DNA of 55,151 nucleotides, taken from Bacteroidota bacterium (GTDB lineage: Bacteria > Bacteroidota > Bacteroidia > AKYH767-A > OLB10). The stretch spans positions 1 to 55,151 of the forward strand of contig JAHEKC010000009.1 in the NCBI GenBank assembly GCA_024638565.1. The letters are read 5' to 3'. The notes below the pieces were generated by a model. It was not told the DNA's origin. It made no database searches and saw nothing but the letters and a program-made list of their open reading frames with translations. Positions 3,693-8,681 of the stretch are shown here, piece after piece (the stretch's first letter is position 1; every line of letters starts with the position of its first letter). The position numbers were made by a program, and so were the translations under genes.

Positions 3693-4826
3693 CTAGTACC
3701 GGTAATTAGCTGGCTCGCCCAGCGTCCGCCGGCCATGCAAGATCGCCTCCTTGTACTTGGTGACCCTTGCACGCAACATGTCCACCAGCGCGGCATCTGC
3801 ATCTTCGACAAAGCCCAGGCCGGCTTCCAGCCTGAGCCGGTATTCCGCATATACTTCCTTCATAGACGTGACCAGGCTTTCCCTCCGGAACGCGTCAGCA
3901 GCCGCAATAATGGCCCTGCGCCAGTCTGAAGATTCAGGAACCGCAACCGGACTGTCACTCAGCTGCAGAATATGAAGGGCTTCCTCCAGCCGCTTCCGTT
4001 CGCCGTCCCGGCTGTCATTCTCCATGGCAACGAAATAACGGGAGAGGGTTTTGTCCTCGAAAGTGGATACGAAAAACTCCATGGTCCGGAAGTCCGGTTT
4101 CAATTCGGGCCGCTCAATGGGGGCGGGCAGATTTTCAATTTCAGGAGTCTCTCTCCCGTCGTTTTGCGTGGCATGGCTGAGATACCTTCTCTCCTTATCC
4201 CCTTTGAGGTCCGGGAGTGAAAACAGGTCCGCCCGGCCAATGGCCTCATCATAAAAAACGTACCATTTTGGAAATGCACTTTCTCCAGCACGCCACGCGG
4301 TGCTGAAATAGTCATAATCCTGCCAGCGGTCATGGTGGCTTTCGGGCGTGTACATGTCGGATTGCAGGTAATCGGTGTATATGTGAAGTTCCGCCGGGGT
4401 AACAGGAGCCACATGTGAGCTGCTGCAGATATTGAATTCCTCGACCAGGAAATCACGGGTCACTTCGATCCCGGGTAATTCGGCTTCACCCGCACGCCAC
4501 CGGCACTGCAGGTCGAAAAGCTTTTTCTGCTGGATCTCCCAGAAATATTTCTCTGCCAGGTGACGGAAATACAGCTGAGCAGATTCGGCTTCGCGCAGAT
4601 GTTTTTCTCCGTTCAACAGGTAATCCGCCTTTCTCCCGGCATAATAGGCGATGAAATCATGAACGGACTGCTCCTCGAAATGACTGAAGAACCGGTCATA
4701 CCGGCTGTTGCAATACAACTCCTCACGGATCCGCCGGTAAAGGCGGTCGCGCTCCACGATCCTGTTTATCTCCTCGCGGGAGGGATCTGACAGGTCGGCA
4801 AATGGATGTCCGGTCTCAGGTTTCAT
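3693..4826 (-). CDS. Uncharacterised 377-aa soluble protein
   Basis: I do not recognise this protein. It has no signal peptide or membrane segment and is rich in charged and aromatic residues, so it is probably cytoplasmic and largely alpha-helical. Repeated aromatic/acidic clusters can be seen (RYDRFFSHFEE, DFIAYYAGRKADYL, HHDRWQDYDYFSTAWR, FPKWYVFYDEA), with two similar W-R-A-G-E segments (CRWRAGEAELP and TAWRAGESAFP). The ATG at 4826 begins MKPETGHPFADLSDP. It converges on the TonB receptor gene with 15 bp between the stops and diverges from the membrane protein gene at 5030. Codon use looks like that of its neighbours. The reading frame is intact and long, so a real gene is likely, but I assign no function. 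Confidence 0.72.
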   Translation of the reverse strand: MKPETGHPFADLSDPSREEINRIVERDRLYRRIREELYCNSRYDRFFSHFEEQSVHDFIAYYAGRKADYLLNGEKHLREAESAQLYFRHLAEKYFWEIQQKKLFDLQCRWRAGEAELPGIEVTRDFLVEEFNICSSSHVAPVTPAELHIYTDYLQSDMYTPESHHDRWQDYDYFSTAWRAGESAFPKWYVFYDEAIGRADLFSLPDLKGDKERRYLSHATQNDGRETPEIENLPAPIERPELKPDFRTMEFFVSTFEDKTLSRYFVAMENDSRDGERKRLEEALHILQLSDSPVAVPESSDWRRAIIAAADAFRRESLVTSMKEVYAEYRLRLEAGLGFVEDADAALVDMLRARVTKYKEAILHGRRTLGEPANYRY

Positions 4827-5029: not shown

Positions 5030-5683
5030 ATGAAAATCAGGGAACAGCTAAAAAATATCACCCCAATCGTCATCATCGCACTGGCAGCAACCACGGCATT
5101 GCTGTCGGCAGTCGTATTGCTGGGAATCGAATCGGGAGTGGACCTGGATAACTTCACCCAGGACCCCACTGCGGTGATGAACGCGCCTTTCTACCTTGGA
5201 TTCTTTTCCAACATCGGGATCATTCTCTGGTGCTCAAGCGCCGCATTTTGCTTCCTGGCAAGCGCCATTGTGACCGGCCAGGGTAACGAACCGCTTCGTC
5301 CGTTCCTGCTCAGTTCTGGACTGATCACCACCATGCTGATGTTCGATGATTTCATGCTGCTGCATGAGGAAGTGTTTCCCGTGTACGCCGGTATTGCTGA
5401 AAACAGCGTGCTATTGGTATATATCAACCTCATCATTATCTACCTCATCTTTTTCTGGCGCCTGATCCTGCGAACTGAATTCCTCTTGCTGGGAATGGCT
5501 TTCGCCTGCGTGGGCATTTCAAAGGCAGTGGCATTCATTCCCATGCCCATACCCGAGGATTCATTCCTCGAGGATGCGGTAAAGCTATACGGTATTGTGG
5601 CCTGGTTCATATATTACACGCGCCTTTCATACCTGGAGATCATTCAGCAAAAAATACTGACCCATGAAAGTGAAAATCGTTAA
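5030..5683 (+). CDS. Uncharacterised multi-pass membrane protein with a DDFMLLHEE motif
   Basis: Inner-membrane protein of 217 aa with about six hydrophobic segments (near residues 12-32, 53-82, 91-110, 126-145, 150-170 and 186-200). Two polar motifs lie within or beside membrane segments: D106-D107 followed by H112-E113-E114, and a later acidic stretch ending in LEDAVKLYGIVAW. A paired acid/His arrangement inside the membrane suggests metal binding or catalysis, but I cannot name a family and assign no reaction. The last 20 bp overlap the start of dut in another frame, so the two are probably translationally coupled. A TTAATTTG box at 5008-5015 is one mismatch from the -7 consensus. Confidence 0.8.
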   Translation: MKIREQLKNITPIVIIALAATTALLSAVVLLGIESGVDLDNFTQDPTAVMNAPFYLGFFSNIGIILWCSSAAFCFLASAIVTGQGNEPLRPFLLSSGLITTMLMFDDFMLLHEEVFPVYAGIAENSVLLVYINLIIIYLIFFWRLILRTEFLLLGMAFACVGISKAVAFIPMPIPEDSFLEDAVKLYGIVAWFIYYTRLSYLEIIQQKILTHESENR

Positions 5684-6220: not shown

Positions 6221-7384
6221 GTGAATATCTATACGCGCAAACAACGCTGGAAACTGCTGTTGCTGCTGGCTGCCCTGCTCATCGGCATCAGTTCGCTTTG
6301 GTATACCAATTCGCTGGTTGAAAAGCTGTCCGGGCAGGAAAAGATGAAGGTCGAATTGTGGGCCCAGGCTGTCCGGCATCTCTCCGATGTGACGGACAAT
6401 ACCGGTGACCTGACATTCGCCTTCAACGTACTTCAAAGCAATACCACCATCCCGGTGATCCAGACAGACAGCAACGATGTACTGAAGAACTTTACCAACC
6501 TCGACTCGGCCCTCATGGCGTCGCCCGTTTACGTGACGGAACAGATCCGTATCATGAAATCACAGCATGAGCCTATCCGGGTCCAGTACGACAAGAACAG
6601 CTTCGACTATATCTATTACAAGGACTCCTACCTGCTCACAAACCTCCAGTACTACCCCTACTTCCAGTTGACCGTGATCACGCTATTCCTGCTGGTGTCC
6701 TATCTGGCCTTCAGCACCTCGCGCAAGGCGGAACAGAACCAGGTATGGGTGGGCATGGCAAAGGAAACAGCCCACCAGCTGGGTACGCCGCTTTCCTCCC
6801 TGGTGGCATGGGTGGAATACCTCAAGTCGGAAGGTCAGACCAATGACCATCTGCGGGAAATTGAAAAAGATGTCAGCCGGCTTCAGACGATCACGGACCG
6901 TTTTTCGAAGATCGGTTCGGCACCCGCATTGCAAAAGGAGAATATAAAGGAAGTCATCGCACGCTCCATCGACTATATCAAATCACGGTCATCGTCGAGG
7001 ATCAGTTTTTCCCTGACCTCCATGCCTAACCATTCGCATGTAATCTATGCCCAGGTTAATATTGCACTATTCGAATGGGTCCTGGAAAACCTGTTTAAAA
7101 ATGCCATCGATGCCATGGAGGGCGATGGCAGTATCAAGGTCCATGTGACGGACCAGCAGCAGTTTGTGTATATCGACATTGCCGATTCAGGAAAGGGCAT
7201 TCCCAAATCCAAATTCAAGACCGTTTTCAAACCCGGATATACTTCCAAAAGCCGCGGCTGGGGGTTGGGCCTTTCCCTTTCCAAGCGCATCATCGAAGAA
7301 TATCACGCCGGGCAGGTTTTCGTAAAAAGCTCGGAAGCCGGGCGTGGGACCACTTTTCGGATCGTACTTCAGAAGTATTCCTGA
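6221..7384 (+). CDS. Membrane sensor histidine kinase
   Basis: Two-component sensor of 387 aa with a short periplasmic sensing region. TM1 is near residues 11-28 and TM2 near 149-165, leaving about 120 residues outside; no known sensor fold is evident. The cytoplasmic HisKA H-box is AKETAHQLGTPLSSL with the phospho-acceptor H185. The HATPase domain shows an N-box (LFKNAIDAM, N294), DSGKGIP (322-328) and the glycine lid GWGLGLSLSK (346-355). The start is GTG at 6221, directly before the basic N-terminus. No response regulator lies beside it, so it is an orphan kinase at this locus. TTAATTTG at 6122-6129 is a possible -7 box about 90 bp upstream. Confidence 0.93.
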   Translation: MNIYTRKQRWKLLLLLAALLIGISSLWYTNSLVEKLSGQEKMKVELWAQAVRHLSDVTDNTGDLTFAFNVLQSNTTIPVIQTDSNDVLKNFTNLDSALMASPVYVTEQIRIMKSQHEPIRVQYDKNSFDYIYYKDSYLLTNLQYYPYFQLTVITLFLLVSYLAFSTSRKAEQNQVWVGMAKETAHQLGTPLSSLVAWVEYLKSEGQTNDHLREIEKDVSRLQTITDRFSKIGSAPALQKENIKEVIARSIDYIKSRSSSRISFSLTSMPNHSHVIYAQVNIALFEWVLENLFKNAIDAMEGDGSIKVHVTDQQQFVYIDIADSGKGIPKSKFKTVFKPGYTSKSRGWGLGLSLSKRIIEEYHAGQVFVKSSEAGRGTTFRIVLQKYS

Positions 7385-7528
7385 CAGGGCCGGCTGAGCA
7401 GCCTGAAGCCGGGAACAATTGCTTCCGCCGGTCTATCGGGCCTGCAAACGTACGTTCAAACGGTAGAGATGATTTTTTGGGGTTGGGTGAGCAGTTGCCT
7501 TTGACGCAGAACCGCAAACCATACCCCC

Positions 7529-7558
7529 TAAAACAACAATGCCCCGGGGGACGGGGCA
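7529..7558 (-). terminator. Rho-independent terminator of the 39-codon gene
   Basis: On the minus strand a GC-rich hairpin (TGCCCC at 7553-7558 pairing with GGGGCA at 7540-7545, 7-nt loop) is followed by the T-rich run TTGTTGTTTTA (7539-7529). It lies about 50 bp past the stop of the small gene at 7609 and faces the same way. The plus strand has no T-run after the hairpin, so it does not obviously serve the kinase gene. Confidence 0.7.
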
Positions 7559-7608
7559 ATTGCTGTACCTAAACCTAACAAACACATTTATGATGCAGAC
7601 ATGGCTGT

Positions 7609-7728
7609 CTATCGATACAGAGACATGAAAACAAGTGTGATCAGGGATGCCACGAAAAGCCCGGCGTGCAGGCAAATCCAAAAAACCTTGCGGTCCCTGT
7701 TTAACTTACTGATCATCTGGTTAGTCAT
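7609..7728 (-). CDS. Small single-span membrane protein, 39 aa
   Basis: Reading the minus strand from ATG at 7728 gives MTNQMISKLNRDRKVF followed by WICLHAGLFVASLITLVFMS and ends LYR with TAG at 7611-7609. The product is a positively charged N-terminus plus one membrane helix (about residues 15-36), the usual layout of small inner-membrane regulatory or assembly proteins. A GGGAAG stretch 5-10 nt upstream of the ATG can serve as ribosome-binding site. The case for a real gene is the complete transcription unit around it: -33/-7 promoter at 7779-7809, tandem repeats at 7812-7846 and terminator at 7529-7558, all on the same strand. I do not recognise the protein. The overlapping plus-strand frame has no such support. 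Confidence 0.62.
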   Translation of the reverse strand: MTNQMISKLNRDRKVFWICLHAGLFVASLITLVFMSLYR

Positions 7729-7778
7729 TGCACTTCCCGGTGAACCGGGCTTACCCTTCTACCGATCCGCTGCAAGGG

Positions 7779-7809
7779 CGAAAATAGTCAAGAAAAGGGG
7801 CTTTTCCAA
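7779..7809 (-). promoter_or_regulatory. Bacteroidota-type promoter of the 39-codon gene
   Basis: On the minus strand TTGG (7809-7806) and TATTTTCG (7786-7779) are separated by exactly 19 bp, matching the -33 TTTG / -7 TAnnTTTG layout with one mismatch in each box. The transcript would start near 7772, giving a leader of about 44 nt before the ATG at 7728. The imperfect boxes would suit a promoter that needs an activator. Confidence 0.55.
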
Positions 7810-7811
7810 CA

Positions 7812-7846
7812 TTCACCCAAGAAAACAGGCCGTTCACCCAAGAAAA
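7812..7846 (-). promoter_or_regulatory. Tandem 14-bp direct repeat, probable activator-binding site
   Basis: TTCACCCAAGAAAA occurs twice on the plus strand, at 7812-7825 and 7833-7846, perfectly conserved and 21 bp apart start to start, i.e. two helical turns on one face of the DNA. On the minus strand the pair ends 2 bp before the -33 box of the 39-codon gene. Directly repeated sites with this period next to a promoter are the usual arrangement for LytTR-type response regulators; that regulator family is my inference. Confidence 0.55.
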
Positions 7847-7877
7847 TCATCCTTTTGCATGATGGTAGGTCATCGGC

Positions 7878-8681
7878 CTAAAGCCGCACCTTCTCGAGCC
7901 TGACACGGTTTCCGAAAAACAGGCGGGTAGCCTTTTCAAACGAGGTGGTATAGTCCGACACGTAAAAATGGTCCTTCCCGCCACCCGGACCGGCAAGGTG
8001 CTCCCTGGCAAGGATATCCTTCAGCTTGGCGGCTGCCACTTCGGCTGAATCGAGGATAATCACAGGCCTGTCGAAATAGCCGGCGATCTCTTTCTTGATG
8101 AGCGGGTAATGGGTACAGGCCAGGATGAGGCCGTCAATCCCTTCCAGGATGGGGTCTGATAAATAGGCGTCCAGCACTGTATGGCTGATCTTGTTCTCAT
8201 AAAAGCCTTCCTCGATCATGGAGGCCAGCAGGGGGGTGGCCAGCGGCGCCAGCTGCAGCGATGGCTTCCGACGGCCGAACTTTTCCTGGTAAACCCCGGA
8301 GCCGATGGTGGTCTTGGTGCCGATGATGCCTGCTTTCCCAATCCTTTCATCGGCAATCACGGCTTCAATCATGGGATCAATCACGTTAATGACCGGCACT
8401 TTGTCTTTGTATGCATCACGCAGGTGTTCATAGGCGGCTGCCGATGCGCTGTTGCAGGCGATCACCACGGCTTTGCAGCGCCTTTCATGCAGCAGGAAGT
8501 CGGTAATGCGCGTGGCATACCGGACAATCAGGTCTTTTGATTTGTCCCCATAGGGCAGGTGGGCCGTATCCCCGAAATAGACGATGGCTTCATCCGGCAG
8601 CACCTGCCTGATGGCACGTGCCACCGTAAGCCCCCCTATTCCGGAATCGAATATGCCAATGGGCAGCGCGGTGCGGTCCAC
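7878..8681 (-). CDS. murI: Glutamate racemase
   Basis: Makes D-glutamate for peptidoglycan by cofactor-independent racemisation of L-glutamate. The 267-aa protein shows IGIFDSGIGGLTV at 8-20, DTAHLPYG at 38-45, the first catalytic cysteine in IACNSA (C76) and the second in LACTHYP (C189). The start is GTG at 8681; the family N-terminus begins within seven residues, so no earlier start is needed. It is divergent from mfd. Its stop lies 31 bp past the tandem-repeat element of the 39-codon gene downstream on the same strand, with no clear terminator between them. Confidence 0.96.
   Translation of the reverse strand: MDRTALPIGIFDSGIGGLTVARAIRQVLPDEAIVYFGDTAHLPYGDKSKDLIVRYATRITDFLLHERRCKAVVIACNSASAAAYEHLRDAYKDKVPVINVIDPMIEAVIADERIGKAGIIGTKTTIGSGVYQEKFGRRKPSLQLAPLATPLLASMIEEGFYENKISHTVLDAYLSDPILEGIDGLILACTHYPLIKKEIAGYFDRPVIILDSAEVAAAKLKDILAREHLAGPGGGKDHFYVSDYTTSFEKATRLFFGNRVRLEKVRL

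Follow-up and report, generated by a model that had tools for sequence, protein, structure and literature searches.

The question raised by this locus is whether the 493-bp gap between a glutamate racemase gene and a sensor histidine kinase gene contains a small gene of its own and, if so, what would switch it on. The gap (positions 7385-7877) lies in the 55,151-nt stretch of DNA analysed here, referred to as the window. The source organism is an uncultured Bacteroidota bacterium, and the best named matches of its murI are from metagenome-assembled genomes. The candidate unit is on the minus strand. The murI gene (7878-8681, minus strand; TIGR00067 above cut-off) is upstream of the unit and co-directional with it, and the gene of the membrane sensor histidine kinase (6221-7384, plus strand; HATPase_c and HisKA) is convergent with it. 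The unit is present as a single copy in its own genome. The murI-kinase gap was kept in none of the genomes examined, which comprised the family loci and the best 36 of 80 named loci. Orthologs of the kinase, with 63-71% identity, were found in most of the family at positions elsewhere in their genomes. Elsewhere in the window, two long ORFs at 3693-4826 (minus strand, 377 aa) and 5030-5683 (plus strand, 217 aa, apparently polytopic) had no Pfam or NCBIfam match above cut-off.

The switch-like part of the gap consists of two 14-bp copies of TTTTCTTGGGTGAA on the minus strand, an upstream copy at 7833-7846 and a downstream copy at 7812-7825, and is far beyond chance expectation. The initial annotation described them as perfect tandem repeats. 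The copies are indeed exact, but 7 bp separate one from the other and the period (start to start) is 21 bp, which makes them direct repeats and not head-to-tail tandem repeats. Each copy carries the 9-bp core TTGGGTGAA (7833-7841 and 7812-7820), and the two cores are separated by exactly 12 bp of T-rich spacer. A lone half-site, TTTTTTGGGGTTGGGTGAG, was also seen at 7468-7492 (plus strand) near the kinase end, where the second copy at 21 bp is absent. This half-site and the upstream repeat form 16-nt inverted arms (7468-7483/7836-7851) that are 352 nt apart. A mobile element bounded by these arms was discarded as an explanation, since the regulatory repeat itself makes up the right arm and the unit occurs only once in the genome.

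The general form of the element is TTKGGYGAA-N12-TTKGGYGAA with a 21-bp period, and it is present across the whole bacterial family, as represented by 24 genomes. By our tally of the match table, 60 matches were obtained in these 24 genomes versus 10 for the reversed-pattern control. When the spacer was set to 15 bp as a further control, the TTKGGYGAA motif gave 13 matches in two genera only. The direct-repeat element is specific in both sequence and spacing. Its sites hold two to four copies at exact 21-bp steps with T-rich spacers, and 48 of the 51 fetched sites are outside long genes, with the other three inside. The TTKGGYGAA motif was not found described in the literature searched.

The organism's own 3.0-Mb genome was scanned with patterns and with model R1, a sequence-only model built from 32 sites in other genomes, the own genome being excluded. 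The window site ranked first at 29.6 bits (E 1.7e-6) with both repeat copies matched, and C70 ranked second at 24.4 bits (E 7.9e-5); these E-values are rough owing to a shortened calibration, which does not affect the ranking. The remaining matches were near chance. Within the window, the repeats at 7812-7846 were the sole match. A one-mismatch search revealed a second intergenic place in the own genome, C70:53468, where three copies at the same 21-bp step precede the gene of a large exported protein. A weaker site, C61, is located upstream of a SprB-repeat protein in reverse orientation. The window site is counted within the regulon by the TTKGGYGAA-N12 element that it carries and by its standing as the best own-genome match to a model built without it.

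The genes behind the element are mostly those of exported surface proteins (LamG, SprB, PKD and T9SS-sorted adhesins), together with a FeeM N-acyl amino acid synthase. The domains found in the targets were LamG, PKD, CshA, SprB, fn3, reprolysin and T9SS-sorting, and also FeeM and an OmpR-type regulator. A strongly hydrophobic N-terminus was present in 30 of the 40 assigned targets versus 47 of 109 other ORFs. Forward targets begin 22-284 bp after the last repeat, and in most of the sampled genera the same LamG/surface protein has an orthologous site ahead of it. The initial annotation proposed that the unit is under dedicated activation. This is unsupported because the element recurs across the family, ahead of surface-protein genes, and at other places in the own genome; the switch belongs to a family-wide, probably LytTR-controlled surface-protein regulon and is not private to this gap.

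Several further features of the sites were observed. FeeM-type synthase genes are located behind the element in two genera, at L242 (G000:C113, the own genome) and at L196 (G003:C36), which hints that a small-molecule signal is linked to the surface-protein regulon. At L210, L213, L217, L218, L221, L230 and L287, the repeats point away from the nearby exported-protein gene, and the gene starts at reversed sites are at most about 110 bp from the repeats or overlap them. It is possible that the element functions in both orientations or that it marks a further class of target. In several orthologs of the LamG protein (L194, L198, L203, L212, L223, L227, L229, L232 and L241), the last repeat is followed by another dyad, roughly GTTATTAACAC-CTGTTAATAAC, which is possibly a second operator. 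At the corresponding position, the window has GAAAAG-CCC-CTTTTC.

The layout of the window site points to a family of regulators. LytTR regulators (AlgR/AgrA/LytR) have been reported to use sites of the 9-N12-9 layout, in which a 12-bp spacer separates two 9-bp direct repeats upstream of the regulated gene (PMC2766830). The window cores have this same layout, and the family enrichment was found at this spacing, not at 15 bp. The family element differs from LytTR sites in that it often has three copies and that some sites are reversed relative to the likely target, and binding is here a prediction. To our knowledge, TTKGGYGAA is unlike the Gram-positive LytTR consensus. LytTR proteins were found in all 24 family genomes, with at least two in each and four in the own genome. 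By table reading, a receiver-PAS-LytTR protein of about 376-398 residues is present in each family genome, including the own. The element was absent from 30 family LytTR loci and from the four own-genome loci, and an autoregulated LytTR gene as the link to the motif was thus rejected. Because the LytTR loci carry no site, the identity of the regulator is not a result but a point that we infer; the site is termed LytTR-like instead of a proven LytTR site because none of these regulator genes carries or neighbours the element. The window element is most probably bound by a LytTR-type response regulator.

The locus has the layout of a small independent transcription unit, in which an activator-type site is followed by a short region and then by a terminator, and in this respect the stand-alone unit of the initial annotation was supported. 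The parts of the unit differ in strength. A candidate Bacteroidota-type promoter is located at 7779-7809 (minus strand) and consists of TTGG (7806-7809), a 19-bp spacer and TATTTTCG (7779-7786). The -33/-7 sequences noticed earlier are present, with two mismatches to TTTG-N19-TAnnTTTG: three of the four TTTG bases match, and one base of TAnnTTTG, the published -7 consensus (PMC9723704), is off. The pattern relaxed to fit these mismatches was found once, against a chance expectation of 0.41 per window, which makes this promoter a weak candidate. Similarly, the GGGAAG proposed as a ribosome site is present and is uninformative, because SD-like tetramers precede just 1 of 20 window genes. The stop codon followed by a hairpin with a T-run was confirmed. 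The terminator-like hairpin TGCCCCG-TCCCC-CGGGGCA (7540-7558, minus strand) is followed by TTGTTGTTTT (to 7530), and the fold of 7530-7575 has an energy of -20.8 kcal/mol (z = -3.68 versus shuffles). The same hairpin could equally end a read-through transcript of murI.

The 39-codon ATG frame MTNQMISKLNRDRKVFWICLHAGLFVASLITLVFMSLYR is located at 7609-7728 (minus strand), with the single strongly hydrophobic stretch that had been noted for it; a basic N-terminus is followed by one hydrophobic helix. Its start is 83 bp behind the last repeat, a distance that falls in the 22-284 bp seen for the other forward targets. Its 19-residue Kyte-Doolittle maximum is 2.24, and it is the only one among 315 window ATG frames of 25-80 codons that reaches at least 2.0. 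A frame of at least 25 aa with this hydrophobicity was obtained in 0.4% of resampled sequences. Judged by its hydrophobicity, the putative peptide would be inserted in the membrane or exported. The frame is a candidate orphan gene, and its best support comes from its position behind the strongest copy of the switch and from its exceptional hydrophobicity. A near-palindrome, CATGTCTCTGTATCGATAGACAGCCATG (7600-7627), spans its stop codon.

A homolog of the 39-residue product did not emerge. None was found in 61 relatives, 42 genomes of the order or 395 genomes of the class, or among plasmids, phages, PDB and NCBIfam, and the Pfam matches were far below cut-off. The sole match below 0.001 (G028, E 8.5e-4) is antisense to folP and was rejected as chance. 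Small membrane frames were also sought at other copies of the element without a long target, and nothing comparable was found; at two orthologous sites without a long target, the sequences diverge directly after the repeats.

The synonymous codon choice of the frame falls between the expectations for coding and non-coding sequence. The GC contents by codon position are 0.41, 0.33 and 0.64 for the frame and 0.58, 0.42 and 0.71 for the genes, and the three positions rank alike in both, in favour of a gene. Among real gene pieces, the codon score ranks at the 9th percentile, and 8% of chance frames score as high. The synonymous log ratio of -1.2 compares with -8.0 +/- 4.3 for non-coding and +7.0 +/- 3.3 for coding sequence; 1% of coding simulations were this low and 6% of non-coding simulations this high. 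Judged from the sequence, translation of the frame has about an even chance.

We propose that the gap holds a unit of about 240 nt under the family-wide element and a LytTR-type regulator, whose likely product is a 39-residue membrane protein; we see this reading as evenly poised between right and wrong. A LytTR-type response regulator would bind the repeats, and the same regulator would govern the genes of surface adhesins and type IX secretion substrates. Once bound and active, it would bring RNA polymerase to a promoter close behind the repeats (near 7779-7809), and transcription would run from about 7772 to the GC hairpin near 7540-7530. The likeliest product of this transcript would be a species- or genus-specific single-helix membrane protein of 39 residues, produced along with the regulon's surface proteins. 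A short transcript at the gap is probably switched on together with the adhesin genes. As to what this short transcript in an adhesin regulon yields, our judgement is divided roughly evenly between a species-specific small membrane protein and a non-coding or decayed product.

An alternative that we regard as unlikely is that the regulated short unit has a small non-coding RNA as its product, with the 39-codon frame present by coincidence. The lack of a homolog and the intermediate codon usage fit this reading, as does the length of the frame, since 52% of resampled sequences contained, on one strand of 427 nt, an ATG frame of 39 codons or more. The terminator is strong, and putative regulatory RNAs of Flavobacterium psychrophilum have alternative-sigma promoters in common with genes for gliding motility and the cell surface (PMC9723704). 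However, the predicted full transcript of 243 nt is no more structured than shuffles (z = -0.62) and no Rfam match was found in the unit; a structured RNA was rejected on these grounds. A non-coding product would also leave unexplained the single most hydrophobic small frame of the window.

A remnant of a lost surface-protein gene, in which the element, the promoter and a signal-peptide-like start were kept, the body was deleted and the frame stops after the hydrophobic stretch, is quite improbable in our estimate. The product resembles an export signal with a basic start, a hydrophobic core and a stop, and the regulon targets are mostly exported. In addition, the locus is syntenic with no relative, and a rearrangement therefore occurred here. 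Against this origin, no recognisable protein remnant was seen by eye in any frame of the gap, the matches of the product to own-genome proteins were not beyond chance, and the element, far from decaying, is better preserved than any other copy in the genome. A stray element that acts on something else or on nothing, next to an unrelated frame, promoter and murI-terminating hairpin, would suit the weak promoter match, the hairpin placement and the 6 of 51 sites in relatives that have no target above 100 aa, but it is very unlikely given that the window site is the strongest match of the genome with both copies and the T-rich spacer kept, that no other gene is downstream in either direction, and that the murI and kinase loci of relatives have no site.

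The proposed small membrane-protein unit can be compared with known systems. Small single-helix bacterial membrane proteins share with the candidate a length below 50 residues, one helix, an own transcription unit and a tendency to be missed by annotation. The 39-aa product is putative and differs from this class in having no sequence relative. The gliding and surface regulon of F. psychrophilum likewise combines exported surface proteins with short regulatory transcripts, but its control is by sigma factors (PMC9723704), whereas upstream direct repeats of activator type are found here. The TAACTGA repeats (PMC4679880) are likewise short direct repeats in intergenic DNA ahead of start codons, and they too have been reported in a few Bacteroidetes. 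They differ in sequence and in their 7-bp unit, and many are within several nucleotides of start codons, where a post-transcriptional action was proposed (PMC4679880).

An element that is specific in sequence and spacing and common to an entire family, with a short list of targets that includes an N-acyl amino acid synthase as well as surface adhesins, constitutes a testable regulon. Outside Porphyromonas and Flavobacterium, we know of little mapping of how adhesins and type IX secretion substrates are controlled. For the gap in the window, the element gives a regulatory reason to examine an orphan small gene that would otherwise be undetectable. A wider and more tentative proposal, which we hold to be somewhat doubtful, is that an undescribed LytTR-type regulon coordinates T9SS/SprB-type adhesins and FeeM throughout this uncultured Bacteroidota family and, in this organism, also drives a fast-evolving membrane protein of 39 residues. 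If this is true, the protein would be made only with the surface programme and would possibly modulate export or the neighbouring envelope machinery.
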